IMG/VR virus record: IMGVR_UViG_3300020436_000050
Coordinates: 1 to 30,855 of that record
Reading direction: 5' to 3' (one strand)
Origin: a virus
DNA: 30,855 nt
Shown: positions 15,531-29,876 of the stretch, piece by piece
How positions within the stretch are numbered: position 1 is the first letter of the stretch
Layout: every line of letters begins with the position of its first letter
Notes under the pieces: model-generated
What the model was told of the DNA's origin: nothing
What the model saw: the letters and a program-made list of their open reading frames with translations, nothing else
The model's database searches: none
Translations under genes and position numbers: made by a program

Positions 15531-16887
15531 ACTTATGTGAAAATTGTATTGCATCTCCTATGGTGTTTACCATAGGTTTACCTTTTATATTCAAAGATGT
15601 ATTCAATAGCACAGGACATCCAGTACGTTCGTACCAGCACTCCAGTATGGGTCTTAGAATACTATCTGAGTTTTTTGGTACTGTTTGTACCCTAGCAGAT
15701 CCATCGACGTGTATACAGGCAGGTATCGCCTTCTGCTGCTTACATTTATAAACATAAGACATATACCTTGATTGTTTAGGCATATCAAAGTAATCTTGAC
15801 AATGTTCCTCAAGTATTGCAGGTGCAAAGGGTCTGAACTTATCTCTCCTCTTTATTTCGTTTACTAGGTCTTTTGTTCCAGCTTCCCTTGGATCCGCCAA
15901 TAAACTTCTATTACCGAGAGCACGAGGACCAAACTCAGCACGGCCATTTGCAACCCCCACGACTTTTTCTTTGAGGAGTGCATCGACAACTCTCCTTGGA
16001 TCACATAACTTCTGTATATTATATCCTAGGTAAGGACTGAAAGCAACTTTCTTACCATATGCTAGACATGCTGCCCCCAGAGCACCCCCTGCGTCACCAG
16101 GACAAGGCATAATCCACATGTTGTACATTTCCCTCAATCCAGTGTTTACGACACAGTTGAGGGCAACACCACCACCATAGCAGATATGCTTACTATACTG
16201 TGCTGCTCTAGCAAATATTGTATTGAGTTCTAATTGCAATATTCTCTCCGCACTCTTTGCGATATCACACTTGTTATAATCTCCTATCCTCGCTCCTTTG
16301 TGATTGTTCTTATGTAACTGCCTTTCTACCACATTCATATTCACAGGATTACCAAACGCTGCCATACCCATAAAGATATACTCTTCATCTAGTGGACGCA
16401 ATCCCGCCCACTTCGTGAGTGCTGAGTACCACAACCCAATAGATTGCGGATACCACTGCGACCATCTCTTTTTATACACTGCTTTTCCGTCTTTGTACTC
16501 CGCAGTCCATATCGATGTAGTATCCCATTCTCCTATACTATCGACAACAACTATCGCTGCTTCATCAAATGGTGATGTCTGAAACGCTGCTGCTGCGTGA
16601 GACTTATGGTGACTATGATACTCTGTGGGTTTGAGTGACAGATGCCTAGGTCTATACCATGCCTTCTGACCTGCGAAGAACTGCCGTGTTCTCTTCAACC
16701 ACGGTCTTTCATAAAATGCTATCTTACCATCATGACATAATAACTGTGCTGTAGACGCAGCAGTGATGTCTAGATGTTTATCATGCTTTCTTTTAGAATA
16801 TCTTTCTGAGTGAGTGGCATAACAAATCTTTCCATCATTGACTACAGCAACTGCTGCATCGTGAAATCCTTCACTGAATCCAATCAT
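15511..16887 (-). CDS. NodU/CmcH-type O-carbamoyltransferase
   Basis: This 458-residue enzyme would transfer a carbamoyl group from carbamoyl phosphate, via a carbamoyl-adenylate, to a hydroxyl group. Family motifs run in order: GFHDAAVAVV (7-16), ATHSERYSKRKHD (24-36), YHSHHKSHAAAAF (90-102) with metal-binding-type histidines, VVDSIGEWDTTSIW (114-127), CYGGGVALNCVVNTG (236-250), ANGRAEFGPRALGNRS (313-328), DKFRPFAPAIL (349-359), HVDGSARVQTV (393-403) and the C-terminal NTSLNIKGKPMV (429-440). It is shorter than bacterial NodU (about 560 residues), but all core motifs are present. The start overlaps the preceding gene as ATGA. Known targets of the family include sugars, antibiotics and, in some phages, 5-hydroxymethylcytosine. 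Here the glycosyltransferase and sulfotransferase context favours a glycan, though DNA cannot be excluded. Confidence 0.93.
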   Translation of the reverse strand: MIGFSEGFHDAAVAVVNDGKICYATHSERYSKRKHDKHLDITAASTAQLLCHDGKIAFYERPWLKRTRQFFAGQKAWYRPRHLSLKPTEYHSHHKSHAAAAFQTSPFDEAAIVVVDSIGEWDTTSIWTAEYKDGKAVYKKRWSQWYPQSIGLWYSALTKWAGLRPLDEEYIFMGMAAFGNPVNMNVVERQLHKNNHKGARIGDYNKCDIAKSAERILQLELNTIFARAAQYSKHICYGGGVALNCVVNTGLREMYNMWIMPCPGDAGGALGAACLAYGKKVAFSPYLGYNIQKLCDPRRVVDALLKEKVVGVANGRAEFGPRALGNRSLLADPREAGTKDLVNEIKRRDKFRPFAPAILEEHCQDYFDMPKQSRYMSYVYKCKQQKAIPACIHVDGSARVQTVPKNSDSILRPILECWYERTGCPVLLNTSLNIKGKPMVNTIGDAIQFSHKYDVTVF

Positions 16888-18011
16888 TCTATAATACCAT
16901 GTCTAATACTAATGGGACCTTCAGGACTGCCCACTTCATATATTCTACCACGTCTCCTCATATCTTTCATACCTCTTTTGTAAATATATTCCTTTGCTAT
17001 CTTCTCATACCTCGCTCGTTCTTCGTAATCGCCAGGATGTGTATTAGTTCTTTCTAGTGGATCCTCTTCAAAACCAAAAGTATCCTTGTAACTATCTCTA
17101 TCCATGTTGAAATAGTAAGGTGTTATTTTATTTGTAGAGAAATAGTTTTCAATTCTCCTTACTTGCGAAACTACAATGTCGAGATAATTCCATAATATAC
17201 CTCTCTTGATTGCGTATAATTTAGCAGCGTTTTGAGTTCCAAATCTTTTCAATACGTGTTTGTTAGTATATCTTTTTAATTTGCTCGCAAAACAATCAAC
17301 CAAATCCTCCTTGTATGGAATGATGTTATGTCTTTGCTTATATTTTTTTATAACATATCTCTCTTCCTCAGTTTGAGGATGAAGTTGGAATTTTATATTA
17401 GCACCTAGCATATGTCTCCCCATGATTGAAAAAGGATCAAATACTATATCAACATCGCATAGGTCATCTATATGAGGTACAATACTTGGATGAACTCCTT
17501 CAGGTTTGAGATATGGTTCTAAAAAAGTTTCAAGATAGTTTTGCCCTGCTGATACTGGGAAATGTTCTTGAAGTTCTGCGAAGTATTTGTCAGTAAAGAA
17601 TATTTCAACAGGGTCTCTGTTCTTCATTAGAATGTCAGGAGGTGTCCTATCATTGACATCACCAAAGTATTGAACCATGAGGTCACCACCAACTTCACTC
17701 GTGTTGGAGTGTAGTTTTGTAACACTTATGTTACTTTTTGCTGCTGCATTCAAATATGGATGCTGTTTTTTCGTGCGTACAAGAGGTTCTTGACCAAATG
17801 TTGTTTTGGTCTTTATTGGTGTCTCTACCACTGACGATCCTTTCCTTATTACGTATGTCTTTTCTATTCTTCTTCTGTAATCATCAGGATCATGCCACTG
17901 TGTGTAATAATAAAATGGGTGCTTTATTTTTGTATATGTCTTTTTGTTGATTTCAATAAGCTGCATCAAGTGCATCTTACCCATGTTAGGTGTTGCCCAA
18001 TAATTGATCAT
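16884..18011 (-). CDS. YWGG-family protein of unknown function (copy 1)
   Basis: This 375-residue protein is the longest of three related proteins in the island. The shared N-terminus here reads MINYWATPNMGKMHLMQLIE, a strand, a Gly-containing loop and a helix; the loop NMGKMH is faintly P-loop-like. The most conserved stretch is HNIIPYKEDLVD (228-239), also in the copies at 24859 and 28300. A third block, YYFNMDRDSYKDTFGF (299-314), matches YEYFDLDKDDWAKTFHV in the third copy. The C-terminal IAKEYIYKRGMKD matches VAKEYIISRGKKD there. A single RDPVE (132-136) recalls the sulfotransferase 3'-phosphate motif but is not seen in the other copies. It starts 5 bp after a 30-codon gene and its stop overlaps the carbamoyltransferase start (ATGA). 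No function can be assigned. Confidence 0.7.
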   Translation of the reverse strand: MINYWATPNMGKMHLMQLIEINKKTYTKIKHPFYYYTQWHDPDDYRRRIEKTYVIRKGSSVVETPIKTKTTFGQEPLVRTKKQHPYLNAAAKSNISVTKLHSNTSEVGGDLMVQYFGDVNDRTPPDILMKNRDPVEIFFTDKYFAELQEHFPVSAGQNYLETFLEPYLKPEGVHPSIVPHIDDLCDVDIVFDPFSIMGRHMLGANIKFQLHPQTEEERYVIKKYKQRHNIIPYKEDLVDCFASKLKRYTNKHVLKRFGTQNAAKLYAIKRGILWNYLDIVVSQVRRIENYFSTNKITPYYFNMDRDSYKDTFGFEEDPLERTNTHPGDYEERARYEKIAKEYIYKRGMKDMRRRGRIYEVGSPEGPISIRHGIIE

Positions 18012-18016
18012 GGATC

Positions 18017-18109
18017 TTAATCCTCATCATCCTCATAGATGTATGGGTCTTGACGACGAAGTTTCCAAAGTTTGTACTCGCCTTTGATCCAGTTCCAAAG
18101 TCTTCTCAT
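18017..18109 (-). CDS. 30-residue small basic/aromatic protein
   Basis: This short minus-strand frame starts MRRLWNWIKGEYKLWKLRRQ and ends in an acidic tail (YEDDED). It fills the gap between a sulfotransferase and the first YWGG gene exactly: its ATG lies 1 bp after the upstream TAA and its TAA lies 5 bp before the next ATG, the same tight spacing as the rest of the operon. The amphipathic Trp-rich basic half and acidic end suggest a small protein that binds a partner or a membrane surface. It has no known domain and the function is unknown. The spacing and unusual composition argue against a random frame. Confidence 0.6.
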   Translation of the reverse strand: MRRLWNWIKGEYKLWKLRRQDPYIYEDDED

Positions 18110-18110
18110 T

Positions 18111-19040
18111 TTATAACCATGACTGAGGTATATATCCAAACTCTTTCTCCCACTTTTGATACACACCTTTCAATTTATTTTTACCCCAAGTTATGTCCTC
18201 ATCTGATAATTTTTGTAGATCTGCAGGTGTATTGTCATGATTTACGCCAATGTAAGGACAATAGACATTTGCATTGATCTCATTGATTTCGCACCCTAGA
18301 AAGTCACAGAGATCACTCTGGTCGTACCAAAACTCTTCCATAACGATTGGATGGGTGTCAAACACTTTTTTATAGTTATTATAGATCTTCAGATAGTCAC
18401 AATTGTGATCTATGCTTTTTGACTTCCAATATTCAATACTATCCTTATATCCAGTTACATCTAATGTTCCTCCTATCCACTCCATAGGATGCTGACCTGT
18501 ATTGTGTTTATATTCTACTGACGCTTCAGAATACCATCTTCTAACTGGATCACGAAATATGATCGTTGCTTTGACAGTAAAGTGCTTTTCTAATTCATTT
18601 TTGATAGATGCCAGAAAATCAGAGGGTAAAACTGCATTACTATTTGAAAAGTCTGATAATCCAATATATCCTTTCTTCTTGTACCTTTCCCAAAGATCAA
18701 GGTGATATTTTATGTAAGTGTGAATCGTTGTTCGTTTTTTGAAGATATTTTGCCAATATGTCGAATCAAGTGGCGTATACATGCTACTTGATACAATCTT
18801 GTGCACTTTTTGATTAGCAATGGCAGATTGCACTCTATAATTGTGTTTTTCGTCAAAATACCGTTTTGCTTGTTTTTGATTGGTTTGTAGTAGGTAAAGA
18901 TAGTATAATATGTTGTTTTCATGAACTATGCCATGATGTGCAATTTTTTGACGACTATGTAAGGTTTTACAGTAAGGTTTAGTCCCAGACCAAGACACAC
19001 CTGCGTTTATTAGTAATAATGGTTTATTTGTTCCACTCAT
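18111..19040 (-). CDS. Sulfotransferase-like protein (paralogue 1)
   Basis: This protein is about 309 residues from ATG at 19040 (MSGTNKPLLLINAGVSW); an upstream ATG at 19076 is open but would lie deeper in the preceding gene. The N-terminal strand-loop GVSWSGTKPY (14-23) takes the place of the PAPS 5'-phosphosulfate loop, and FRDPVRRWYSE (about 162-172) is a clear 3'-phosphate-binding motif (R, S). Other landmarks shared by the island's paralogues are SDFSNSN (about 129-135), VMEEFW, NVYCPYIG and the C-terminal WEKEFGYIPQSWL. Sulfotransferases move sulfate from PAPS to hydroxyls or amines. The usual Lys before SGT is Trp here. The start overlaps the upstream paralogue by 17 bp. Acceptor unknown. 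Confidence 0.82.
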   Translation of the reverse strand: MSGTNKPLLLINAGVSWSGTKPYCKTLHSRQKIAHHGIVHENNILYYLYLLQTNQKQAKRYFDEKHNYRVQSAIANQKVHKIVSSSMYTPLDSTYWQNIFKKRTTIHTYIKYHLDLWERYKKKGYIGLSDFSNSNAVLPSDFLASIKNELEKHFTVKATIIFRDPVRRWYSEASVEYKHNTGQHPMEWIGGTLDVTGYKDSIEYWKSKSIDHNCDYLKIYNNYKKVFDTHPIVMEEFWYDQSDLCDFLGCEINEINANVYCPYIGVNHDNTPADLQKLSDEDITWGKNKLKGVYQKWEKEFGYIPQSWL

Positions 19041-19947
19041 CTGGTATATACCCAAATGTTTTCTCAAACTCTGCATATACTGACTTCATTAGTCTTGCAC
19101 AAGCTTTATATTGATCATCGGTGATATCTACTTTGTCAGAGTTATATTGATCACTCAAATATTCATATTTTGGTGGATTAGAACCCATATCTGGATAATA
19201 TACGTTTTCGTGGACTTTCGTAAAATTATATCCCAAGAAATCGGACAAATACTCTAATTCTTGTTTTTGTGTGTCTGGATTCCACAATTCCTCCATTACT
19301 ATCGCTCTTACATTTTCTACACCCCATATAAGTGCATGTCTTCGATATATCGATGAATAATAAGCGTTAGGTTCAAATCTACCAGACAACCACTGATACA
19401 TTACCTGTATAGGTGTCATATTTGGATATTCATTGTTTTTCACACACTTATTTGCCACAGAAAACAATCTTCTGATCGGATCTCTGAATTGCATGGTAAC
19501 TTTGATATCAAAGTGCTCCAACAATTGATCTCTGATAGTTTGCATGAATGGTATCGACAATAATGCATTTTGATTAGAAAAATCACCTACCCACTCGTAA
19601 TCATGCTTACAATTTTCCCAATGTTTCTTATAATACCAAATATAATTTTCTATGGATAAGGAATCGTAAAAAAATCGATTTTCTTCTTCTTGTGTCCACT
19701 TACCAACAACATATGGAGATAGGTGAGTGAGTAAATCTGGTTTTTTACGTTTTTTTGCAACATCTGGTCTAGGTCTCTTACCATCCAAACGAATATTATC
19801 TTCACCCATCATCATATTGAAAAGGTACATATGTTCCTTTGTATGACCAGTGTAAACGCACTTATGATCCCATGATACTGTGTAATGGAAAGGTGATGTT
19901 GCAGAAAAACAAGTTCCAGTATTGAGAAGTAGTTTTATTTTTCCCAT
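19024..19947 (-). CDS. Sulfotransferase-like protein (paralogue 2)
   Basis: This 307-residue protein begins MGKIKLLLNTGTCFSATSPF. The loop GTCFSATSP replaces the classical KxGTT motif, with Phe in the Lys position. It keeps VGDFSNQN, the 3'-phosphate motif QFRDPIRRLFSV, VMEELW, NVYYPDMG and the C-terminal FGYIPDEWNK. Its ATG lies in the last codons of the upstream paralogue (13-bp overlap across a Trp-Glu-Lys-stop sequence), and its own end contains the next start in the same manner. This nesting implies translational coupling along the array. It is divergent from its immediate neighbours in the middle part, so it is not a recent copy. Likely PAPS-dependent; acceptor unknown. Confidence 0.8.
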   Translation of the reverse strand: MGKIKLLLNTGTCFSATSPFHYTVSWDHKCVYTGHTKEHMYLFNMMMGEDNIRLDGKRPRPDVAKKRKKPDLLTHLSPYVVGKWTQEEENRFFYDSLSIENYIWYYKKHWENCKHDYEWVGDFSNQNALLSIPFMQTIRDQLLEHFDIKVTMQFRDPIRRLFSVANKCVKNNEYPNMTPIQVMYQWLSGRFEPNAYYSSIYRRHALIWGVENVRAIVMEELWNPDTQKQELEYLSDFLGYNFTKVHENVYYPDMGSNPPKYEYLSDQYNSDKVDITDDQYKACARLMKSVYAEFEKTFGYIPDEWNK

Positions 19948-20852
19948 TGACTCGGTATGTAGTTGAAGTATGATTTAAAGTTGTTATAAACCCATGCTAA
20001 CTTATTTCTACCATATTGTAAATCATCATTTGACAAATCTTGCATATCTGAACTCCATTGATCTCTGAGACCTTCTATTTCTGGTCTTTTTGTTCCCCTC
20101 TCTGGAAAATATACGTTATCATGCATTTTGTCAATTGTCATACCAATGAAGTCAGATAAACCACTTGGATCTTCCCACACTTCTTCCATAATAACAGGAT
20201 ACACGTTTTTGAAAGCGGATTTCCAATTTTTTAAATTTGTGATGTAATCAGGAACTAAAAATGGTTCTGGGTTTATTAATTTTGATTTCCAAAAAGAAAT
20301 ACTGTCAGGATACTGCTCCTTTATCCTCTGCCAATAGGCAAGTTTTTCTGGATCTCTTATTTTCCACCCTTCATACGCTTTATCATTTTCAGTGCTCATT
20401 TTATACCATGCAGAAATTTGCGAATATGATCTACGAACAGGATGCCTCCAAATCATTGTAACTCTTACGTCAAATTCTTCTTCTAATGCAGGTGCTATCT
20501 CTTTTAGGAAGTAATCTGGTAGATCACCATTACTATTTGAGAAATCACAAACACCTCTATGACTATCTTTTACTTTACTCTTCATATACTCAATATACCA
20601 TGGCAATGTGGTATTTTTTCTGACAAAATCAAACTTTCTATGTTTGTGATCAGTGTGCCAATAGTATCTTGCATGAACTGGTTTATATTTTCTCTCATAC
20701 AAATAATATAACATATTAGGTTCTGTTGTTGAACCCTTTTTGTCACTTGTGAAGTTATGATGACCATAACCCACGTTATCAAGAGTGTAGCATAGTGGTT
20801 TTGTAGCAGACCACCCTACCCCTGCGTTTATATGAAGGATTGGTTTAGTCAC
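19935..20852 (-). CDS. Sulfotransferase-like protein (paralogue 3)
   Basis: This 305-residue protein starts at GTG (20852), overlapping the stop of the oxygenase gene by 8 bp; no ATG is available before the conserved N-terminus (PILHINAGVGWSATKPLC). The 5'-loop is GVGWSATKP with Trp in the usual Lys position. It also has VCDFSNSNGDLPDYFL, a 3'-phosphate motif IWRHPVRRSYSQ (His replaces the usual Asp), VIMEEVWED, NVYFPERG and the C-terminal FNYIPSQWEK. The family is known to transfer sulfate from PAPS. The direct join to the 2-oxoglutarate oxygenase suggests the two act on the same substrate, perhaps hydroxylation followed by sulfation; that order is inference. Confidence 0.8.
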   Translation of the reverse strand: MTKPILHINAGVGWSATKPLCYTLDNVGYGHHNFTSDKKGSTTEPNMLYYLYERKYKPVHARYYWHTDHKHRKFDFVRKNTTLPWYIEYMKSKVKDSHRGVCDFSNSNGDLPDYFLKEIAPALEEEFDVRVTMIWRHPVRRSYSQISAWYKMSTENDKAYEGWKIRDPEKLAYWQRIKEQYPDSISFWKSKLINPEPFLVPDYITNLKNWKSAFKNVYPVIMEEVWEDPSGLSDFIGMTIDKMHDNVYFPERGTKRPEIEGLRDQWSSDMQDLSNDDLQYGRNKLAWVYNNFKSYFNYIPSQWEK

Positions 20853-21444
20853 AATCTATAAAATAATCAAAGTCCATTCTGTGTGATAGTATCTTATCAG
20901 GGTCAGCAAAAAACACAGTTAGGTTTACCCTTTCATTGTCACCTGACATAAACCTATGCCAAGTTTTAGGTCTTGGATTGTGAGCGAACAATCTATTTGG
21001 TTTCCACTCAATTTCTACTTCTCTATCTGAAGGTTTATCGGGTTGATTGTGATCCCCGTTATCATTCGTGGAAGGATTGTCGCACAAAATAGTGCCTTTG
21101 TTTTTTTCAGGAGCCACATACAATACTGACGTATGTATTCTTGAAGAATTGTCAATATGACAGGGGTAAACTGTATTAGGTGACATAATAACCCAATGAT
21201 TCAATTTTACTAATTTATTATATTTTCTATGATCTTGAAAAGACATGAATTCCTTTGTAAGTTCAGGAATCAAGTCATCTTTTACATAATTAGTGTATTT
21301 TCCAGTGGGAGTGTTTGATCCAACTTTTTTATATTTTTCAAACTCGATTCTTGCTAAATCTTGAATAGTATTGAATCGATCTGGTGATAGAAAATTATCA
21401 ACTATCCCATACTCCCACGGATCTGAATATATCTGTAAATTCAT
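20845..21444 (-). CDS. 2-oxoglutarate/Fe(II)-dependent oxygenase
   Basis: This 199-residue protein from ATG at 21444 forms a TAATG overlap with the preceding stop; a TTG four codons earlier is less likely. It carries the facial triad and cosubstrate Arg of the double-stranded beta-helix oxygenases: YPCHIDNSS (H96, D98), then NPRPKTWHRF (H163) and ERVNLTVFF (R172). A strand IHTSVLYVAP follows the HxD, and WKPNRLFAHNP precedes the distal His, both typical of the prolyl-hydroxylase-like branch. Such enzymes hydroxylate proteins, small molecules or nucleobases with O2 and 2-oxoglutarate. It sits within the sulfotransferase array and would be able to create hydroxyl acceptors for them. The substrate cannot be read from the sequence. 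Confidence 0.85.
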   Translation of the reverse strand: MNLQIYSDPWEYGIVDNFLSPDRFNTIQDLARIEFEKYKKVGSNTPTGKYTNYVKDDLIPELTKEFMSFQDHRKYNKLVKLNHWVIMSPNTVYPCHIDNSSRIHTSVLYVAPEKNKGTILCDNPSTNDNGDHNQPDKPSDREVEIEWKPNRLFAHNPRPKTWHRFMSGDNERVNLTVFFADPDKILSHRMDFDYFIDCD

Positions 21445-22490
21445 TAGATATGCCAATAATCAAATTTGTAATCTATCGGTTCTCCCCAGTTCATAGGTAG
21501 AGAACCGTAATAATCCTTCCAATCGTCGTAAATTTTTTGATATTGTTCTTTTAGTTTGATATATGTCTCTTTCGTAAGTTCCATGTTCTGTCCATACGCT
21601 TGACAGGGGACATCTCTATCAAATTCTACGAAATGACCTTTATCTGGAGAATAAAGATTTTTCCATAGATTATCAATAGGATGATCTAGGAATTGTGAAA
21701 GCACTTTCTTTGCAGTGCCATCATCTTCCCAAAGTTCTTCCATAACAGCAACATGAACATTATCTTTTCCAAAGACTTCATAGATACGCTTGATTTTTTT
21801 AATATAGTTTGTAAAATTGATTTCAATCGGACCTGAAAAACCAAACGATTGGAATTGATTATTGATTATTTTTCCCAATCCTTTACTATTTGTCTGCGTT
21901 CCATCTGGTGTCAACAATCCATCTGCTTCACCTGCCTTTTTCTTTTCTTGTCTATAGAGATATTGTGAATAAGCACGACGAACAGGATCTCTTGCAATTA
22001 GAAGAAATCTGACATCAAATTCAGACTTGAGTAATGCAAAAAATTCTTCCAAATCTCTTCTATGTGATTTGTAACCTAAGTAACAATCACCTGCAGACTT
22101 ATAACCTTTAGTAACAACATGATCATGGAGTGCGTGAAAAAAATCTAATTGTTTTCTTTCTGTTCTCTCACCTGTCATCAGATTGTCAAAGTGTGAAATA
22201 GGAAAATCATGAAGAGGTTGAAGATCAACAGTAAGATTCATTCTATGAGTGCTAGGTTCATAACTCATATAATTTTCCCAAGTATTGTTACGTACTTGAT
22301 CGTAAATGTTGGTCAGTATTCTTGATGACTTAGGATTTCCTTGATAACTTGGATAGCGATCAGGACCGAGATATTTAAATTGTTTAGTATAACCAAAGTG
22401 AGCGTACTTGGCATTACGTTGAAGAGTATATACAAGTGGAGAAGTTGCTGACCAACTAAATCCACCAACTAAAAGCATTTTTGGTTTCAT
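21444..22490 (-). CDS. Sulfotransferase-like protein (paralogue 4)
   Basis: This protein is 348 residues from ATG at 22490, which makes an ATGA overlap with the upstream stop. A 19-residue extension from 22547 is open but lies wholly inside the upstream gene and lacks conservation. The N-terminus MKPKMLLVGGFSWSATSPLV is nearly the same as in paralogue 5, showing a recent tandem duplication. The 3'-phosphate motif is IARDPVRRAYSQY; VMEELWEDDG, NLYSPDKG and YYGSLPMNWGEPI follow. Compared with paralogue 5 it carries an insertion of about 30 residues after the RDPVRR helix (EKKKAGEADGLLTPDG and on) plus a longer central part. The DFSN motif of the other paralogues is lost here. Confidence 0.82.
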   Translation of the reverse strand: MKPKMLLVGGFSWSATSPLVYTLQRNAKYAHFGYTKQFKYLGPDRYPSYQGNPKSSRILTNIYDQVRNNTWENYMSYEPSTHRMNLTVDLQPLHDFPISHFDNLMTGERTERKQLDFFHALHDHVVTKGYKSAGDCYLGYKSHRRDLEEFFALLKSEFDVRFLLIARDPVRRAYSQYLYRQEKKKAGEADGLLTPDGTQTNSKGLGKIINNQFQSFGFSGPIEINFTNYIKKIKRIYEVFGKDNVHVAVMEELWEDDGTAKKVLSQFLDHPIDNLWKNLYSPDKGHFVEFDRDVPCQAYGQNMELTKETYIKLKEQYQKIYDDWKDYYGSLPMNWGEPIDYKFDYWHI

Positions 22491-23365
22491 GAGTAACTTA
22501 TTGGTTGTCCCCAATGAAGAGGAAGAGAACCATAGAAATCCTCCCAATCATCGTATATATGTTGACATTGCTTTTTCATAGAATAGTACAAATAAGGTGT
22601 AAGTTCAAGTAAGTCTTGTCCATACGCTTGACAAGGCACGTCTTTATCATATTCTACAAGGTGACCTCTATCTGGAGAGTAGAGATTTTTCCAGAGGTCT
22701 GTAATTTGATGGTCTAAAAACTTTGAAAGTTCTTTTTTTGCAGTGCCATCGTCTTCCCACAGTTCTTCCATAACAGTAATATGAGTATTATCTTCACCAA
22801 ATTTTTTATGAAGTTTATGAATCTTCCTCATATAATCAATAAACTTATATTGAAATTTTCCTCTTATTTTTAGTTTACAAAGGTATTCTGAAAAAGCACG
22901 ACGAACAGGATCCCTCGCAATTGAAAGAACTTTGACATCAAACTCTTTCAGAAGTAATCTATGAAATTCCTCTTCATTAGTTGTCATTACTCTACCCACA
23001 GACTTATAACCTTTTGTTATGACATGATCAAAGACTGCATGATAAAAATCTATGAGAGCGTGAAAAAAATTTTCACTTGTCATAAGTTTCTTTATGTGCG
23101 AAAGAGAAAAATCATTAAGAGGTTCAAGGTCAACAGTGAGATTCATGTTATGAGTGGCTGGTTCATAACTCATATAATTTTCCCAAGTTCCATTCAAAAC
23201 ATGATCAAATATATTGATAGTTTCATTTTTATGTGTTTTGAAAAACCACATTAAAATCTTACTATAACCAAAATGTGCGTACTTGGCATTACGCTGCAAA
23301 GTATAAACAAGTGGAGAAGTTGCAGACCAACCCCACCCCCCAATCAGAAGCATTTTTGGTTTCAT
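22487..23365 (-). CDS. Sulfotransferase-like protein (paralogue 5)
   Basis: This 292-residue protein is the compact twin of paralogue 4, sharing MKPKMLL at the start, SPLVYTLQRNAKYAHFGY, and long identical stretches such as ELWEDDGTAKKELSKFLDH and DVPCQAYGQ. The 5'-loop is GWGWSATSP and the 3'-phosphate motif IARDPVRRAFSEYL. It ends FYGSLPLHWGQPISYS. Only 10 bp separate its ATG from the ATG of the divergent plus-strand paralogue 6, so any promoters for the pair must lie inside the opposing coding sequences. It heads the minus-strand run that continues to the terminator near 13890. Function: probable PAPS-dependent sulfotransferase with an altered phosphosulfate loop; acceptor unknown. Confidence 0.82.
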   Translation of the reverse strand: MKPKMLLIGGWGWSATSPLVYTLQRNAKYAHFGYSKILMWFFKTHKNETINIFDHVLNGTWENYMSYEPATHNMNLTVDLEPLNDFSLSHIKKLMTSENFFHALIDFYHAVFDHVITKGYKSVGRVMTTNEEEFHRLLLKEFDVKVLSIARDPVRRAFSEYLCKLKIRGKFQYKFIDYMRKIHKLHKKFGEDNTHITVMEELWEDDGTAKKELSKFLDHQITDLWKNLYSPDRGHLVEYDKDVPCQAYGQDLLELTPYLYYSMKKQCQHIYDDWEDFYGSLPLHWGQPISYS

Positions 23366-23375
23366 AGATATAGTT

Positions 23376-24290
23376 ATGAAATTAAGGACTCCACTTATAA
23401 TCGGTGCAGGTACTGGTTGGTGTGCTACAAGTCCTCTCTACATGACTTTACAGTGCTCAAATAAATGTGCTCACGTTGGATTGAAGAAAGAAGATCATCT
23501 TTTGTATCATGTGTACACTAATAACGCTTGGGAATGGCGAAAACCTGATTATGAGAATCTAATCAAAGATTCTATGAGTCCAGTTTGGAAATATGAGTGG
23601 GGAAGACGAAGTAAATATGCATTTCATCAAAATTTAGACGAAATTCATGAATTGTACACAAAACCAACTCTTGAAACTTACATCAACTATTATATTCGAC
23701 ATTATCAAAGAGTAAAACACGAATATTCGTATGTTGCCGACTTTTCAAACAGCAATGCTCAATTACCACTAAGTTTTTTAGAAAAAATTGCTCCAGAACT
23801 GAAAAAACACTTCAAAATCAAAGTTTTGATCATTTTTCGTGATCCAGTTCGTAGATTATACAGTGAATTATCTCACAAATATCAAAATGACGAAAATTTA
23901 CGTAAAAAATACCCAACTTCCAAAGATTATTACTGGAGTTATCTTAAGATAGGCAATTATAGCATAAATTGCGAATATGTCAAGCGAATAAAGTATTATA
24001 AGTCCGTTTTTGATACCACAAGTGTGGTTTCTGAAGATCTTTGGGGAGGAAAGAATGATGCTTTAGCAAAACTTAGCAATTTTTTACAGTTTGACATCAA
24101 AAACCTATGGCCTAACTGCTATTATCCTGAAATGGGAACAAAAGCACCTCACTATGAGAACCTTGCTGACCAGTATGAGTCGGATTTAGAGGATTTGACC
24201 CATGATGACTTGGTTTTTGGTCGAAAGTACCTTGCAAAGTACTATGATGAGTGGTATAATGAGTTTGGAACAACGCCTTGGAGGTGTTGA
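23376..24290 (+). CDS. Sulfotransferase-like protein (paralogue 6)
   Basis: This 304-residue protein is the only sulfotransferase of the island on the plus strand. It begins MKLRTPLIIGAGTGWCATSP; the loop GTGWCATSP again has Trp at the usual Lys position and Cys for Ser. It keeps VADFSNSNAQLP, the 3'-phosphate motif FRDPVRRLYSEL, SEDLWGGKN in place of the MEELW block, NCYYPEMG, and ends with WYNEFGTTPWRC. Its last 49 bp overlap the 3' end of the convergent SGNH gene (24242-24823), so one DNA stretch codes for the conserved C-termini of two protein families. No separate promoter can be identified in the 10-bp gap ahead of it. Acceptor unknown. Confidence 0.82.
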   Translation: MKLRTPLIIGAGTGWCATSPLYMTLQCSNKCAHVGLKKEDHLLYHVYTNNAWEWRKPDYENLIKDSMSPVWKYEWGRRSKYAFHQNLDEIHELYTKPTLETYINYYIRHYQRVKHEYSYVADFSNSNAQLPLSFLEKIAPELKKHFKIKVLIIFRDPVRRLYSELSHKYQNDENLRKKYPTSKDYYWSYLKIGNYSINCEYVKRIKYYKSVFDTTSVVSEDLWGGKNDALAKLSNFLQFDIKNLWPNCYYPEMGTKAPHYENLADQYESDLEDLTHDDLVFGRKYLAKYYDEWYNEFGTTPWRC

Positions 24291-24823
24291 GCGATCAAAT
24301 TGTGACCTTCTTTGCTAGGGTGACCAGTAACATAATGTTTGGGGTGTGTTTCTGGGGTGCCAATCAGGTCATACAAGGTCACCATGTCGCTCCAAGGCAC
24401 CAACTCTTTGAAAATACAGTCATTCTCCATATTTTTTTCTGATCCTTCGCTCGCTCTCCAGAAATAATGTGGAATATCTCGTAAATACTGCTCTAAAATA
24501 TAAACATTCCTCCACAAATTCAACATTCTCAACTCCTGAGAGTCCAAATACTTGTAATATACCCTTGACTCAGTGTTTTTTGTCCAAGGAGTTATGTTTT
24601 TCCAACCATTTTTATGGTAAATTATCCTTCTTGGCACAGTAAATTGAGTAACAACGTAGTCAACATCAGGATTTTGCTCAATATACTCTATTGTCTTCAT
24701 GACAATCATGTCATTTGACATACCACACTGGGCAATATTAGTGTGATCTTTTGAAAATCTTTCTTTTTCTCGATTTTCTAACTCATCACCGTATGTTAGA
24801 CTACATCCAGAAAACAAAATCAT
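24242..24823 (-). CDS. SGNH-hydrolase-like protein (paralogue 2)
   Basis: This 193-residue protein is the shortest SGNH-like member. It begins MILFSGCSLTYGDELENREKE with the putative nucleophile Ser in SGCS, followed by CGMSNDMIV (block III-like Asn) and the C-terminal YVTGHPSKEGHNLIAQHL with the putative catalytic His. The usual Asp three residues before that His is Val. A conserved VVTQFTVPRR strand corresponds to VIQFT in the paralogues. It is transcribed convergently with sulfotransferase paralogue 6 and overlaps it by 49 bp, and is divergent from the YWGG gene at 24859 with only 35 bp between the two starts. Probable esterase or acyltransferase fold; activity uncertain. Confidence 0.75.
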   Translation of the reverse strand: MILFSGCSLTYGDELENREKERFSKDHTNIAQCGMSNDMIVMKTIEYIEQNPDVDYVVTQFTVPRRIIYHKNGWKNITPWTKNTESRVYYKYLDSQELRMLNLWRNVYILEQYLRDIPHYFWRASEGSEKNMENDCIFKELVPWSDMVTLYDLIGTPETHPKHYVTGHPSKEGHNLIAQHLQGVVPNSLYHSS

Positions 24824-24824
24824 G

Positions 24825-24832
24825 AATAAATA
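24825..24832 (+). promoter_or_regulatory. Possible late-type promoter element
   Basis: The octamer AATAAATA, preceded by G, differs from the T4 late consensus TATAAATA in its first base. It lies 26 bp ahead of the plus-strand YWGG gene at 24859, and an AAGGAA ribosome-binding site follows at 24845-24850, well spaced for that ATG. The match could be chance in AT-rich DNA, but the placement in the only gap between two divergent genes is suggestive. Confidence 0.4.
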
Positions 24833-24858
24833 GGGGTAAATAACAAGGAAAAAACAAA

Positions 24859-25602
24859 ATGTTCACATACTGGGGTGGAATTAGAAGTGGTAAGATGCAG
24901 ATATGGCAACTATTTGAGTTGAATGGAAAGACAACTGCTATTTCTACAATCTCAGGAAAGAAGTGGCCTGCATTTTTTATATTATATAGTGGTGGTGAGC
25001 GTTCTCATATACTATATGAAGAAGATAATCATATCAAAACTAAATTTCACAAACCTGCTTGCATCATAGATGGTGAGTATGATCTCAAGTCTGATTGGGG
25101 TAAAGATGGAATTGAAAGAGAGAGTGGTTGGTCAACTGATCCACAAGTATTATATAAGTCTTTCAATAGAGTATTTGAAAAAGATCTCATAGTGAATCCT
25201 TTTCTATTATTTGGATACTATGGTAAGGTAGGAACTGAAGAATTCAATGAGATGGTAGAGAAAAGACAACCTAATATGAAGGTAGATCTAGACTATACGA
25301 TTAGTGAACTAAAGAAGAGACGTAATATCATACCATACAAAACTGACAAGGTACACGAAAAATACTTATTCAATATGCTTACTGTGCAGAAGGAGAAGAG
25401 AGAAAAGGTACTAAAGTGTAGTCAGCAACTTACACCTTTGATTGAAGGTTTACTTACTGAGTATGAAATACCTTTTGAAAAGTTTGATTTAGATGCTGCT
25501 TTGTTGAATAATGATTACTCTACGTTTGGTTTAGATAAACCGCTACCTAAGAAAATTCTTGAAGAAGATATGAATGCTGCTCGAAAATTTTATCAGCAAT
25601 AA
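24859..25602 (+). CDS. YWGG-family protein of unknown function (copy 2, short)
   Basis: This 247-residue protein begins MFTYWGGIRSGKMQIWQLFE, aligning with YWATPNMGKMHLMQLIE and YWGGCTGAKRFVKKLM in the other copies. It keeps the RRNIIPYKTDKVHE block (154-167) and a C-terminal PFEKFDLDAALLNNDYSTFG block, but lacks about 50-130 residues in the middle relative to copies 3 and 1 and the final AKEYIxxRGxKD tail. RSGK in the first loop is the closest of the three to a nucleotide-binding loop. A good ribosome-binding site (AAGGAA) lies 8 bp ahead of the ATG. Its last 56 bp overlap the convergent SGNH gene. Function unknown; a shortened but intact reading frame suggests it is still expressed. Confidence 0.68.
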   Translation: MFTYWGGIRSGKMQIWQLFELNGKTTAISTISGKKWPAFFILYSGGERSHILYEEDNHIKTKFHKPACIIDGEYDLKSDWGKDGIERESGWSTDPQVLYKSFNRVFEKDLIVNPFLLFGYYGKVGTEEFNEMVEKRQPNMKVDLDYTISELKKRRNIIPYKTDKVHEKYLFNMLTVQKEKREKVLKCSQQLTPLIEGLLTEYEIPFEKFDLDAALLNNDYSTFGLDKPLPKKILEEDMNAARKFYQQ

Positions 25603-26335
25603 TCTTATGACCCCTTGCACTTGGATGTGATCCAGAAAATCTTTTGTTTAGATTATTGTCTAGCACTTCACTTTTAAGATCACGAGTAAAATTAGGATTG
25701 TACCATTTCCATCGACCTCGATTCTCTTGTGAGATACGAGTTTCAACTGGCAACTTTAGAATATTTTTCAGTTCTATGATCTCAATATCGTGACCCACTA
25801 GACTATACCAAACATTTCTACATTCAGGTTTACCATATCTTCTGTCTCTTGGTGTTTCGCCTAGATTGAGATGAATAACTTTGCACTTATCTTTGAGATA
25901 ATTGCGTATCATAAACATATTTTTCCAATAATTATCAATAGAGAATTGATCATTCACCGCTACGTGCTTCATGTATGCTTTTTGTGCTTGTTCTTTGTCA
26001 TTGTTGGCATAAAGGTATGAATCTCTTTCCATCCACTTTGCTGGCATGTGATGTGTCTTGCCAGTTTTATCGTACCACAACCACCTTTTCTCTTGACTAA
26101 ACTGAATGATTGCAACATCACAAGTATTACCTTCCTCAAACCATTCAATAGTTTTTTTGACAATCCAATCATTACTTGTGCCACTACATGAAATATTCAC
26201 ATATGTTTTACCTAACCTTTCCGCTACCAGATTCGAGAACCTTTCTTTTTCTCTTTTAGCGTGATTCTGTTCAGGTCCTTGTAACTCTTCACCCCAAGTA
26301 TAACTGTCACCACAAAAGAATAAATTTACTTTCAT
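25547..26335 (-). CDS. SGNH-hydrolase-like protein (paralogue 3)
   Basis: At 262 residues this is the longest SGNH-like member. Block I is FFCGDSYTWGEELQG, with GDS as in classical GDSL enzymes (the others have GCS). Then come NISCSGTSNDWIVKKT (block III-like Asn), VAIIQFSQEKRW, and the C-terminal SGSHPSARGHKIIADKIF. The residue three before the presumed catalytic His is Ser rather than Asp. Its ATG overlaps the stop of the next paralogue (ATGA), so paralogues 5, 4 and 3 form one tight minus-strand cluster. The 3' end overlaps the convergent YWGG gene by 56 bp. Likely esterase, deacetylase or acyltransferase fold; substrate unknown. Confidence 0.76.
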   Translation of the reverse strand: MKVNLFFCGDSYTWGEELQGPEQNHAKREKERFSNLVAERLGKTYVNISCSGTSNDWIVKKTIEWFEEGNTCDVAIIQFSQEKRWLWYDKTGKTHHMPAKWMERDSYLYANNDKEQAQKAYMKHVAVNDQFSIDNYWKNMFMIRNYLKDKCKVIHLNLGETPRDRRYGKPECRNVWYSLVGHDIEIIELKNILKLPVETRISQENRGRWKWYNPNFTRDLKSEVLDNNLNKRFSGSHPSARGHKIIADKIFEQHSYLLQEFS

Positions 26336-27072
26336 ATCTTTTTCCTGATAATACCCATAAGATGATCTGCTATCATTCTATGACCTTCTTTTGTCGGATG
26401 ACCATAGCGGTGTACTAGATTTCTATCTAAGATTGGTTTGTTCAAATCCTTTCTCTTGCTAGGGTGAGTTGTGTTCATCATATAATCAAAGTTCAACTTA
26501 GTCCAAGAATTGATAGAGCAAAGAATGAGAGGCACTCCTTTTATCTTACAGTAGTTCTCAATTGTTTGTTTGTGTATGTTTTCTTTTGTATTGAAGAACT
26601 TCTCAGTTGTCACTACCTTATAATACTCTTTCCAGAAACGCTTATCATAGTGAAACTTCTCATGTAGGTTCTTATATACCTCATGTTCTTCTGGTTTTGA
26701 TAACGAATCTTTAGTGCTCATATCTGCCCACTTGACACCTATCGCCTTTCTCAAATGTAGAAAGTAACTGAACTTATACTTTGGATTGACATTGATCCAC
26801 CCTGATGGATGTACATCTTTATCATATTCAACGCCACTGTAATACTCAGTTCTGGCAGGGAAAGTCATCTGTATAACCGCCAAGTCATATTTCTCTATAT
26901 CGTTCTCTACCATAAGGTTTCTAACCATTCTATCATTTGATGCACCAGAGGTAGAAAAGTTTCTCTCTTTTGCACCTAGGTCATTTGCTATCAACCTAGA
27001 GTATCTTTGCTCTTCACGATTCTCTAACTCTTCACCACATGTCCAAGAACATCCATCAAAATATATTTTCAT
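26332..27072 (-). CDS. SGNH-hydrolase-like protein (paralogue 4)
   Basis: This 246-residue protein begins MKIYFDGCSWTCGEELENRE. The putative nucleophile is in DGCS, followed by FSTSGASNDRMVRNLMVEN, a VIQMTFPARTEYYS strand, and the C-terminal VHRYGHPTKEGHRMIADHL. The region is strongly similar to paralogue 5 (GASNDR, MTFPARTEFYS, VPLVLCTINPFTK against VPLILCSINSWTK), which points to a tandem duplication followed by divergence. Even 10 or more bases before the ATG match the flank of paralogue 5. Asp is missing from the DxxH position. Its ATG overlaps the stop of paralogue 5 (ATGA) and its stop overlaps the start of paralogue 3. Confidence 0.76.
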   Translation of the reverse strand: MKIYFDGCSWTCGEELENREEQRYSRLIANDLGAKERNFSTSGASNDRMVRNLMVENDIEKYDLAVIQMTFPARTEYYSGVEYDKDVHPSGWINVNPKYKFSYFLHLRKAIGVKWADMSTKDSLSKPEEHEVYKNLHEKFHYDKRFWKEYYKVVTTEKFFNTKENIHKQTIENYCKIKGVPLILCSINSWTKLNFDYMMNTTHPSKRKDLNKPILDRNLVHRYGHPTKEGHRMIADHLMGIIRKKI

Positions 27073-27716
27073 TGTTGACGAGTAAGTATATAATTATGTA
27101 TGTCATCTGCAATCATACGATGACCTTCTTCAGATGGGTGTCCATGATCAAATAGTGGGAGTCCCTCGTGATTTATGTGTAAGTCAAACTTCTCCTTTGT
27201 GAAAGGATTTATAGTGCAAAGCACAAGTGGCACTCCTTTGTCTCGACAGTAACTTTCAATTGTGATCTTCTGTATTTTTTCTTTCATCTCAAAGAACTCA
27301 TTTGTTGTCACGATGCGGTAATAATCATTCCAGAATTCTTTTTGATCTGTGAGTCTTGCTAGTGGAGTATTATATGTGTCTACAACTTCTTTCTCAAGTA
27401 TTTTTTTACTGAGTCTTCTTATCATATCAACAAAACTATATTTCGGAGCAACTGATATCCAACCTTTGTAGGGAGGGAGACTATAAAACTCAGTTCTGGC
27501 AGGGAAGGTCATGGTGATCACTGCCAGATCAAACTCTTGAATATTATTCTCAACTAACAGATTTCTGACTATTCGATCATTTGATGCACCAGAGTATGAA
27601 ACGTTCTTTTCTTCTGCACCCAACCTATCGCATAGTATCTTTGAGAATCTCTGCTCACGTTGATTATCCAATCCCTCACCAATTACCCATGAACATCCAT
27701 CAAAGTATACTTTCAT
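27069..27716 (-). CDS. SGNH-hydrolase-like protein (paralogue 5)
   Basis: This protein is 215 residues from ATG at 27716; a TTG three codons earlier is open but less likely. It begins MKVYFDGCSWVIGEGLDNQR with the putative Ser nucleophile, GASNDRIVRNLLVEN (block III-like), VITMTFPARTEFYS and LFDHGHPSEEGHRMIADD. It is the only copy that keeps Asp three residues before the catalytic-type His (D-H-G-H), so it is the best candidate for a complete catalytic triad. It is the first gene of a minus-strand cluster and diverges from the plus-strand operon whose -35 box begins 2 bp beyond its start codon. Probable esterase or acyltransferase; substrate unknown. Confidence 0.77.
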   Translation of the reverse strand: MKVYFDGCSWVIGEGLDNQREQRFSKILCDRLGAEEKNVSYSGASNDRIVRNLLVENNIQEFDLAVITMTFPARTEFYSLPPYKGWISVAPKYSFVDMIRRLSKKILEKEVVDTYNTPLARLTDQKEFWNDYYRIVTTNEFFEMKEKIQKITIESYCRDKGVPLVLCTINPFTKEKFDLHINHEGLPLFDHGHPSEEGHRMIADDIHNYILTRQQ

Positions 27717-27718
27717 TG

Positions 27719-27747
27719 TTGACAAGTCATAATCAAGGTGTTATGAT
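27719..27747 (+). promoter_or_regulatory. Near-consensus sigma70 promoter for the plus-strand accessory operon
   Basis: TTGACA (27719-27724), a 17-bp spacer and TATGAT (27742-27747) match the bacterial sigma70 consensus in 11 of 12 positions. Transcription would begin near 27754, giving a leader of about 190 nt before the first small reading frame. Recognition by host polymerase would make this an early-expressed operon, unlike the late baseplate operon. The -35 box lies next to the start codon of the divergent SGNH gene, so transcription here could interfere with that gene. Confidence 0.75.
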
Positions 27748-27790
27748 ATGTATGTTGGACGCAACATGGGAGTGACTGAATAAACTTACT

Positions 27791-27927
27791 GGCAACTGCT
27801 GGTTAAGGTGATGAGACACAGGTGGTGCTGCTACGAAAGTAGAACCGATCAACCAATCGGGTCTCAGGCAACAACGTTTTTACTACTGTAGTAATGCCCG
27901 TTGTTTGTTGGTATACAGGAATCCAAC
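27791..27927 (+). ncRNA. Candidate structured leader RNA with pseudoknot (possible riboswitch)
   Basis: The leader holds a set of perfect helices. P1 is TGAGAC 27812-27817 with GTCTCA 27861-27866. It encloses a weak 3-bp CAG/CTG hairpin (27819-27830), a CTAC-GAAA-GTAG hairpin with a GNRA tetraloop (27831-27842), and CCGAT/ATCGG (27845-27849 with 27856-27860). The loop of the last hairpin, AACCA (27851-27855), is complementary to upstream TGGTT (27800-27804), forming a pseudoknot. A second domain pairs AACAACG (27870-27876) with CGTTGTT (27899-27905) around a TTACTA/TAGTAA hairpin, and GTTGG/CCAAC (27907-27927) follows. There is no T-run terminator, so translational control is more likely. Structured leaders such as manA and wcaG RNAs are known in marine phages near sugar genes, but I cannot match this one to them by eye. 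Confidence 0.6.
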
Positions 27928-27945
27928 CTCCCTCTTTTCTTTTAT

Positions 27946-28065
27946 ATGATTGTTATGCCTTTATTTTTGATTGTTCTAGCATCGTCTGCTATGGGTGCTT
28001 CGATTGCTCTCTACATATTACGTAAGTTCGATCCTCATACTGATGAAATCTCAAACGACAAATAA
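27946..28065 (+). CDS. Very small membrane protein (39 residues)
   Basis: This frame opens with ATG at 27946, with a second in-frame ATG at 27955. It encodes one hydrophobic segment (PLFLIVLASSAMGASIALYI) followed by a basic-then-acidic tail RKFDPHTDEISNDK, a typical single-pass small protein with the tail in the cytoplasm. It is the first frame after the structured leader and overlaps the next gene by 23 bp, consistent with coupled translation. No good ribosome-binding site precedes it (the upstream bases are pyrimidine-rich), so access may depend on the leader fold. Function unknown; size and topology would fit an accessory or leader-regulated membrane peptide. Confidence 0.5.
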   Translation: MIVMPLFLIVLASSAMGASIALYILRKFDPHTDEISNDK

Positions 28066-28300
28066 TAAGTGGTTAGGAGTCGCAACTCTCGGATATTTTG
28101 CTTCAGCATTTCTGACAGGTGGACTCATATATCTTGCACAGAGTAATCATAGACTTTCAGATACGAATGATGCACTGTCAGCAGATATACAGTTATTAGT
28201 CGAAGCATATCTAACAAGTGATAAGGATTGTTATCTTTTAGCACCTAAACCAGACAATTATCTGATATGGGAAGAAATGCCATATAAGGAGATGATCTAA
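28043..28300 (+). CDS. Small single-pass membrane protein (85 residues)
   Basis: From ATG at 28043 this protein begins MKSQTTNNKWLG and has one membrane segment (residues about 11-32, VATLGYFASAFLTGGLIYLA) followed by a mostly polar C-terminal domain ending WEEMPYKEMI. The frame is open back to an ATG at 27995, but that start would overlap the preceding small gene by 71 bp and place polar residues and a second hydrophobic stretch in front; 28043 is preferred. Its TAA overlaps the next ATG (TAATG). No enzyme motif is seen. A role as membrane anchor for the following YWGG/SGNH pair is conceivable but not shown. Confidence 0.62.
   Translation: MKSQTTNNKWLGVATLGYFASAFLTGGLIYLAQSNHRLSDTNDALSADIQLLVEAYLTSDKDCYLLAPKPDNYLIWEEMPYKEMI
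28286..28291 (+). promoter_or_regulatory. Strong Shine-Dalgarno site for the YWGG copy 3 gene
   Basis: AAGGAG lies 8 bp before the ATG at 28300, inside the end of the preceding coding sequence. It fixes that ATG as the start and shows the gene can be translated independently of the small upstream frames. Most other genes of the island lack such a clear site and rely on overlap coupling. Confidence 0.8.
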
Positions 28301-29196
28301 TGTTTGTTTACTGGGGCGGATGCACTGGTGCAAAGAGATTTGTAAAGAAGTTGATGATATACAACGACAAATCCTATGTTGAGCATTATCCATTCCACAT
28401 TGTTCATGCAAAGCATATTTGTCACTCGGCACCTAAACCACTTCGATACGATTCTCAGTGGGATGTAACTCGAAAAGCTGATATCATTTCTCGAAAAATA
28501 GAAACTCCAAACCAATACTCTATAAAAACTACTGGTTGGGAGAGAGACACAGATTTTGTGAACATGGGTCTAGAAGCAATGGGACCTTCACATCGATCTC
28601 TTGGAGGATTTCAAGTACGAGGAATCGAAGATAGGTATTTCTACCGAGACAGATATAAGATCAAGAACAAATCAAAAGACCTTGTTGAGTTACCCATAAC
28701 TGATATTCCAGAGTGTCATACCGTATTCCCTTATCATCGTCGTGCTGCTTATTCGTTTGATGGTGTGAAGATCTCAGACTGGTTTCGCTCACACACTAAT
28801 ATCGTACCATATAAGTCAGACTTGGTAGAATCCGCAATCAATCAACTTGACAACTGGGGAGAGTATTTTCCTGATTCAGACCCTTGGTGGAAGGTCGATA
28901 AAAAGAAAGTATGGCACCACTTAGATCTTACAGTATTTCACATGTGGTATAAAGTAGAAGAGAGATTACGAGAGGCTGGTATCGATTATGAGTATTTCGA
29001 TCTTGACAAAGATGATTGGGCAAAGACCTTTCATGTACAGAAAAATCTTCCAAGGCAAATTATGCACCATGTATACTGTCAAATGAATCGTCTAGAGAAG
29101 GAAAAGAAGAAGAAGGCATACGAAGACTATCGAAGAATGACAGAGGTTGCGAAAGAATATATTATAAGTAGAGGTAAAAAGGATAACAGACTATGA
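28300..29196 (+). CDS. YWGG-family protein of unknown function (copy 3)
   Basis: This 298-residue protein begins MFVYWGGCTGAKRFVKKLMI. It carries the shared block HTNIVPYKSDLVES (165-178), then YEYFDLDKDDWAKTFHV and the C-terminal VAKEYIISRGKKD, which align with copy 1 in the same order. The middle is rich in Trp, Tyr and His (for example FPYHRRAAYSFDG and WWKVDKKKVWHHL), and no catalytic motif is recognised. The ATG is set by an AAGGAG site and a TAATG overlap; the stop overlaps the following SGNH gene (ATGA). In all three cases a YWGG gene lies near an SGNH gene, which suggests linked function. Highly charged C-terminus (KEKKKKA). Function unknown. Confidence 0.7.
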   Translation: MFVYWGGCTGAKRFVKKLMIYNDKSYVEHYPFHIVHAKHICHSAPKPLRYDSQWDVTRKADIISRKIETPNQYSIKTTGWERDTDFVNMGLEAMGPSHRSLGGFQVRGIEDRYFYRDRYKIKNKSKDLVELPITDIPECHTVFPYHRRAAYSFDGVKISDWFRSHTNIVPYKSDLVESAINQLDNWGEYFPDSDPWWKVDKKKVWHHLDLTVFHMWYKVEERLREAGIDYEYFDLDKDDWAKTFHVQKNLPRQIMHHVYCQMNRLEKEKKKKAYEDYRRMTEVAKEYIISRGKKDNRL

Positions 29197-29876
29197 TGTT
29201 TTTTGTTGGATGTTCTTTCACAATGGGAATGGAACTTGAGAACCCAGAGGAAGAAAGATTCTCATCACTTGTGGCAAATCAACTTCAAATGAAACATCTG
29301 AATCGAAGTGAAGCAGGTTTATCCAATGATGGTATTCTACGTAAGACTATCAAGTACTGTGAGAAAGAACCAGTGGACTTCGCAGTCATTCAATTTACAA
29401 AGTATTCGAGAAGAGAAATATTGAACATCAAAAAACCATTACCAAACACATCACCATACTTCCGTGTCAATGCAAGTAACCCAAGCAAAGGAGTGAAAGA
29501 TTATTTTGCCAAATTATCTACACCAGAAGATGATATTGCAAATTACTATAAAAACAAGTTTTTACTAGAGTTTTATCTTACAGCAAAGAAGATACCTTTC
29601 TATTTTCTACAACTCTCAAAGAAAATCAATAGGGGCGTTCATACAGATAGATGGTTATATCATAAGTCTGCATGGGAAGAAGACTACTTTGCATATCACA
29701 GATCTTTATGGCAAAAATTGAGTGATGAACCAGTTGACTGTATCTATCAAATACTTGGAGGGGACGAAGACTCAGGGTCTCCTTACTTCACATCATCTCA
29801 AAGACCTCATCCAAATGCAGAAGGTCATCGTAAGATAGCAGACCATATACTGAAAAATCTTAAGGGGGATTTTTAA
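29193..29876 (+). CDS. SGNH-hydrolase-like protein (paralogue 6)
   Basis: This 227-residue protein begins MMFFVGCSFTMGMELENPEE, with the putative Ser nucleophile in GCS. Block III-like GLSNDGILRKT and FAVIQFTKYSRRE follow, and the C-terminal RPHPNAEGHRKIADHIL has the putative catalytic His. The DxxH Asp is replaced (Q-R-P-H). It overlaps the YWGG gene by 4 bp (ATGA) and has a GGA-type ribosome-binding site about 9 bp upstream. It is the last gene of the plus-strand operon; an A/T-rich hairpin and T-run follow its stop. Likely esterase, deacetylase or acyltransferase fold, possibly catalytically altered. Confidence 0.76.
   Translation: MMFFVGCSFTMGMELENPEEERFSSLVANQLQMKHLNRSEAGLSNDGILRKTIKYCEKEPVDFAVIQFTKYSRREILNIKKPLPNTSPYFRVNASNPSKGVKDYFAKLSTPEDDIANYYKNKFLLEFYLTAKKIPFYFLQLSKKINRGVHTDRWLYHKSAWEEDYFAYHRSLWQKLSDEPVDCIYQILGGDEDSGSPYFTSSQRPHPNAEGHRKIADHILKNLKGDF

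Follow-up and report, generated by a model that had tools for sequence, protein, structure and literature searches.

A full-length manA RNA in a virus contig: riboswitch candidate or discrete phage RNA gene?

The structured RNA encoded at positions 27753–27937 on the + strand of the window, the 30,855-nucleotide stretch of viral DNA analysed here, is a full-length manA RNA (Rfam family RF01745). It is an ordinary, well-preserved copy of a family that is already known. The identity, structure, promoter and placement of the RNA were computed here, and a survey of approximately 250 manA copies suggests that a discrete RNA gene is at least as likely as a cis-regulatory riboswitch. On balance, and by a slight preference, manA is read as a single-copy phage RNA gene that yields a discrete structured RNA, for which an action in trans is proposed. 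A fuller version of this proposal is more tentative and falls a little short of the probable. Here, manA would be a free-standing, phage-only RNA gene and not a riboswitch: single-copy, transcribed from its own promoter, processed with tRNAs in some phages, extended by a 3′ domain in a subset and acting in trans.

Identity and setting of the window RNA

A covariance-model search over all Rfam families, the check that a preliminary description of this DNA had proposed, returned a single match at the gathering threshold when the entire window was scanned. This match, to RF01745, scores 194 bits (E = 5.9e-53) against a gathering cut-off of 55.2 bits and spans model positions 1–192, i.e. the complete 192-position model. 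Between positions 27600 and 28100, no other Rfam family matched up to E = 1. Membership of the manA family is near certain. The preliminary description had placed a structured leader at 27754–27945, which is right to within a few bases, and had offered manA or wcaG as known marine-phage classes to which it might belong; the first suggestion was correct, and the second was not borne out. Neither wcaG RNA (RF01761) nor PhotoRC-II RNA (RF01717) has a match in the window.

Weinberg et al. described manA RNA in 2010 from marine samples and T4-like cyanophages, labelling it cis-regulatory and probably a riboswitch (PMC2864571). The Rfam type entry for RF01745 is likewise Cis-reg. The Rfam 14 paper credits the original manA alignment with 48 significantly covarying pairs, and the alignment was updated in Rfam 14.3 (PMC7779021). 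A 2023 paper on S-CREM1 states that the regulatory role of manA is still to be verified (PMC9964418). No ligand or function for manA is reported in the literature passages found, and the published passages on the P-HM2 and S-PM2d infection transcriptomes do not mention manA.

Among the products encoded in the window is a baseplate wedge subunit of phage, which agrees with the phage setting expected of manA; manA was also found in 39 phage records, the names of which are all Prochlorococcus, Synechococcus, marine virus or cyanophage. The window RNA ends 17 nt before the ATG at 27955 on the same strand, a potential 5′ UTR placement that holds partly across the whole manA family. In all helices, in its phage setting and in its same-strand position before an ORF, the window copy is like RF01745, and it differs from the family in nothing.

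Positions 14886–29876 of the window form an island of paralogous ORFs. Those at 14886, 24242, 25547, 26332, 27069 and 29193 start with an FxGCSxTxGxELEN-type motif and appear SGNH hydrolase-like by eye, and those at 18111, 19024, 19935, 21444, 22487 and 23376 contain an FRDPVRR-type motif and appear sulfotransferase-like by eye. A carbamoyltransferase, identified by Pfam, is encoded at 15511–16887 within the island.

Conserved fold of the manA RNA

Homologues were gathered from IMG/VR contigs and phage genomes, giving the set of approximately 250 manA copies. The IMG/VR homologues were fetched by exact motifs, and conservation within GUGACUGAAUAA is therefore overstated. Covariation was tested in 61 diverse homologues against the Rfam structure together with a proposed loop–loop contact. 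Standard pairs occupy 96.1% of the cells, and changes on both sides are seen in 28 of 51 pairs, a result that none of 500 shuffles matches. In a control in which the pairing partners were slid, the paired share drops to 32–48%. It is this covariation that places the fold beyond chance. Folding energy by itself would not reveal the fold, and was discarded as weak evidence of structure, being unremarkable when compared with shuffles (z = −1.5).

All of the helices lie on the + strand. The RNA opens with P0 (27753–27766), a 5′-terminal hairpin of the Rfam structure with the sequence UGUUG-GACG-CAACA; 239 homologues can form a perfect P0 hairpin of at least 4 bp, and 88 different sequences are represented among these hairpins. 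The body is closed by a nearly invariant helix between GGGAG (27768–27772) and CUCCC (27928–27932), in which a compensatory A-U to U-A change occurs in 3 of 61 and 6 of 167 sequences. GGGAG/CUCCC was also considered as a pseudoknot and rejected, as the fold shows a nested closing helix. Within the body, the outer pair of the hairpin ACUGGC/GCUGGU (27788–27803, pairing 27788–27793 with 27798–27803) covaries among the 61 homologues (AU 30, UA 19, GU 8). Covariation also defines the long hairpin AACAACG/CGUUGUU with its inner stem (27870–27905), which has two-sided changes at 7/7 outer pairs. The 3′ hairpin GUUGG/CCAAC (27907–27927), with a conserved loop UAUACAGGAAU, is taken from the covariation alignment.

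A four-way junction (27812–27866) is closed by UGAGAC/GUCUCA (27812–27817 with 27861–27866), the six pairs of which all show two-sided changes. Its arms are the hairpin CAG-GUGGUG-CUG (27819–27830), the GNRA hairpin CUAC-GAAA-GUAG (27831–27842), whose length varies among relatives, and the hairpin CCGAU/AUCGG (27845–27860). The last of these (27845–27849 with 27856–27860) is 100% paired in the 61 homologues, with two-sided changes at 4/5 pairs, and carries ACCA in its loop. The closed junction, the GNRA hairpin and the CCGAT/ATCGG stem had all been picked out from the sequence in the preliminary description and are present as given there; the leader stems for which it had proposed a covariation test are preserved in the 61 homologues. 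Its account of a junction with four arms, laid out as in a tRNA but with loops of another kind, also holds.

A pseudoknot that had been drawn between TGGTT (27800–27804) and AACCA (27851–27855) did not survive. At three of the five positions, 19, 21 and 43 of the 61 sequences cannot form the pair, and the pseudoknot fails covariation, whereas the hairpin at 27788–27803 uses the same TGGT bases, covaries and excludes it. An alternative partner for ACCA (27852–27855) may be the complementary UGGU (27823–27826) in the loop of CAG-GUGGUG-CUG. In alignment A1, which has approximately 60 invariant columns, many of them outside helices, UGGU never varies and ACCA hardly does, and a loop–loop contact is therefore plausible from sequence conservation. 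The four-way junction and this candidate contact between the loops of the second and fourth arms, comparable to the D-loop/T-loop elbow, are the features that manA shares with tRNA. It lacks the anticodon arm, T-loop consensus and acceptor end of a tRNA, and its junction is embedded in a larger closed structure. Neither ARAGORN nor Rfam finds a tRNA in the window RNA, which does not belong to that class.

Promoter and 5′ end

The preliminary description had reported a strong promoter upstream of the leader, and rightly so. A sigma-70 type promoter, TTGACA - 17 nt - TATGAT, occupies 27719–27747 on the + strand with 11/12 consensus matches, and would place +1 at about P0. Across the family, 215 of 244 homologous loci match the pattern TTGACA-N15-19-TATAAT with no more than one of the 12 bases different, as do 10 of 971 control windows. 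P0 usually follows the −10 box by 5 nt, which puts the start of the hairpin at approximately +1.

At six loci, a tRNA identified by ARAGORN as tRNA-Thr lies directly upstream of manA, ending 0 nt before it in L240, L167, L147, L156 and L096 and 1 nt before it in L189. No such promoter is present in the upstream sequence of L240 and L167. Maturation of the tRNA and initiation at the promoter would thus yield the same manA 5′ end.

At many loci, a terminator-like hairpin, GGAGGGGTTGACACCCCTCCTTTTTTT, contains the −35 box TTGACA in its loop, so promoter and terminator share bases. Hairpins of this type lie upstream of manA in L037, L047, L145, L152, L188 and many others. A candidate conserved upstream ORF, ATGGGAGTGACTGAATAA (MGVTE*), starting from 27766 was rejected, its ATG not being conserved.

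Sequences behind manA

The first gene behind the window RNA is a hydrophobic 36-codon ORF, MPLFLIVLASSAMGASIALYILRKFDPHTDEISNDK, at 27955–28065 (+), the product of which is, from its sequence, probably a single-span membrane protein. The preliminary description had noted a small frame without a good ribosome-binding site; this frame is real, with its ATG at 27955 and a product of 36 aa that is conserved in related loci. In the predicted fold, its start region is left unpaired. The ORF has no Pfam or PHROG match, and its identification with cyanobacterial NdhP, as a gene near manA in P-TIM68 is annotated, was dismissed when the two gave no alignment. Relatives of the 36-aa protein stand 22–66 nt behind manA, counted from the closing helix, in seven of the eight loci that carry one; the P-HM1 relative is 80 kb away from manA. 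Together these proteins make up a tiny hydrophobic family of 29–36 aa, MPLFLIVLxxSxxGAxIALYILRKYDPH, that matches no known family. A second small ORF of 85 aa (28043–28300, +), also a probable membrane protein, overlaps the 36-codon ORF and has a homologue behind manA in L185. In the window, no terminator is present behind the manA RNA on the + strand.

Across the family, several kinds of element stand between manA and the next ORF. At 62 of 216 loci, a hairpin terminator lies no more than 110 nt past manA, compared with 31 of 921 control windows; under stricter criteria, the count was 37 of 214, compared with 1.8% in the control. The late-promoter-like motif HTAAATA follows within 60 nt at 49 of 216 loci (3.3% in the control); cyanophage psbA genes carry a Gp55-type late motif, according to a passage of a published study (PMC5931967). 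For 12 of 215 loci, ARAGORN reports a tRNA gene no more than 150 nt downstream, mostly 2–17 nt away, where approximately 0.3 would be expected. In L288 (phage S-SSM7), L160 and L036, the final base of the manA match is also the first base of the tRNA match, so RNase P would sever manA from the ORF. Counting terminators, tRNAs, late-promoter motifs and the 3′ domain described below, a separator precedes the ORF at 115 of 216 loci (53%). The other 101, the window included, have none, and their gaps are often 11–55 nt.

The downstream sequences also contain a structured element of approximately 37 nt, GACCUAAGAUGCAACUC-loop-GAGUNGGGCAGAUGGUC. Among the 120 listed IMG/VR matches to this element, 117 have manA 5–18 nt upstream. 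Two of the other three are cut by contig ends, with the 3′ end of manA still visible in one, and the third is a chance match, apparently in coding sequence. Across 41 distinct sequences, its three stems keep all of their pairs, three of which show two-sided changes. No known Rfam family accounts for the element, the best candidate being an 11-bit chance match. Of 216 manA loci, 28 have the element; the window copy does not, and the element is read here as an optional 3′ domain of the manA RNA. The element was seen on L231, L009, L010, L064 and approximately 115 other viral contigs, and a U-run often follows it.

Copy number and gene neighbourhoods

Each of 13 complete cyanophage genomes carries exactly one manA, at sites that differ among them (gp23, talC, gp32, PurS and pstS neighbourhoods). 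In P-HM2, manA lies 5′ of gp32, and in P-SSM7 it is followed by a terminator. One 4.8-kb contig, L158, has two manA RNAs of 183 and 153 bits, unlike the complete phages. Ten of 11 other T4-like cyanophages, which have Synechococcus hosts, lack manA; phages of this group can thus do without whatever function it has. In the picocyanobacterial host family, 200 of 201 genomes have no manA match; the single match is on a 189-kb contig, probably of phage, from a single-cell assembly, and the other genome-contig pattern matches are mostly chance. Hypothetical genes have been annotated over manA in published phage genomes (P-SSM4 PSSM4_169.1, P-HM1 PHM1_121, S-SSM5 SSSM5_127 and P-HM2 PHM2_011/012) and are probably spurious.

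The first downstream ORFs at 215 loci fall into approximately 48 clusters, the most frequent being gp32 (37), transaldolase TalC (35) and a ThyX-containing cluster (19). These are followed by phrog_431 (16), phrog_3060 (10), a phosphomannomutase-like protein (8), PurS (6), HSP20 (6), mannose-6-phosphate isomerase (4) and others. The constant functional class of controlled genes that would be expected of a riboswitch is not seen among these clusters. A manA tree of 160 tips requires at least 81 changes of downstream family, compared with a mean of 107 for shuffled labels; a tree built from fewer than 200 columns is poorly resolved, and the figure of 81 is therefore rough. Genes downstream of manA are co-oriented with it in a ratio of 188:5, and upstream genes in a ratio of 154:29.

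Discrete RNA gene or leader

The preliminary description had taken the RNA for a riboswitch or other cis-acting element. That view agrees with its filing by Rfam and by Weinberg et al. in 2010, but the neighbourhood favours a discrete RNA at least equally. The discrete RNA is supported by the abutting tRNAs, the terminators, the late-promoter motifs, the single copy per genome and the changing downstream gene, and also by the promoter found at nearly every copy, the 3′ domain and the lack of manA in almost all genomes of the host family. It is proposed that manA transcription would be driven by its own strong sigma-70 promoter and start at P0, and that a body of approximately 185 nt would fold, closed by GGGAG/CUCCC, with the tRNA-like four-way junction locked by the UGGU/ACCA loop–loop contact. 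In some phages, tRNA processing would free manA at its model ends. We infer release as a discrete RNA that may act in trans when phages infect Prochlorococcus and Synechococcus, on some RNA, protein or metabolite of the host or the phage. The downstream genes would be mostly read-through neighbours, and the window transcript would continue into the small membrane-protein operon. Four observations tell against a discrete RNA: the stronger co-orientation downstream than upstream, as expected for a leader; the recurrent pairings with gp32 and talC; the 101 loci that have no separator before the ORF; and the lack of manA in most of the other T4-like cyanophages. Co-orientation under the discrete-RNA proposal could reflect read-through, because a convergent gene would receive antisense RNA.

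The published interpretation, in which manA is a candidate cis-acting riboswitch or leader that senses a metabolite such as a sugar phosphate or nucleotide precursor and controls the downstream gene, is possible but judged doubtful. In the window, its target would be the small membrane-protein operon. The Rfam type and the label given in the 2010 report (PMC2864571) speak for this interpretation, as do the downstream co-orientation, the approximately half of loci in which nothing separates RNA and ORF, and recurrent neighbours in nucleotide and sugar metabolism (talC, thyX, PurS, manA and PMM) in addition to gp32. Set against these, no common expression platform is evident in the family, terminators being present in a minority only, and the predicted fold of the window RNA leaves the start region unpaired. 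The downstream target is nearly as changeable as under shuffled labels. Between RNA and ORF there is often a tRNA, a terminator or a late-promoter motif, tRNAs are found at either end of manA, and each genome has one copy.

It is unlikely that manA is a general 5′ module, a structured cap that guards phage transcripts from host RNases or aids translation. The position of P0 at approximately +1, the possible 5′-terminal hairpin in 239 copies and the occurrence of manA before ORFs and tRNAs alike would suit such a module, but a stabiliser needs no invariant core of the kind seen in the invariant columns of A1, and a single copy per genome also argues against it. The idea that inverted repeats have clustered here by chance, or that the RNA is a degenerate tRNA, with which a folding energy only modestly better than that of shuffles might agree, is refuted by the 194-bit match and the two-sided changes in 28 pairs, ARAGORN finding no tRNA in the window, and retains a negligible probability.

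Relation to other phage RNAs and implications

PhotoRC-II and wcaG RNAs are likewise structured RNAs of the same marine phages, and PhotoRC-II occurs on two related contigs, L248 and L143. Unlike manA, PhotoRC-II is tied to probable psbA genes, according to the 2010 report (PMC2864571). The near-universal promoter of manA, its single copy per genome, the abutting tRNAs and the 37-nt 3′ domain of relatives do not appear in the passages of published manA descriptions that were found. The 3′ domain, bound to manA, is a new structured element that is invisible to an Rfam search.

For 16 years, manA has been filed as a riboswitch candidate without a ligand, and it may have been mis-filed as a leader. 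If manA is a discrete RNA gene, ligand searches based on the downstream genes would be misdirected. The family would then represent a non-coding RNA that is widespread among viruses abundant in the ocean, one that could be tested in laboratory cyanophages, among which P-SSM4, P-HM2 and P-SSM2 carry manA.
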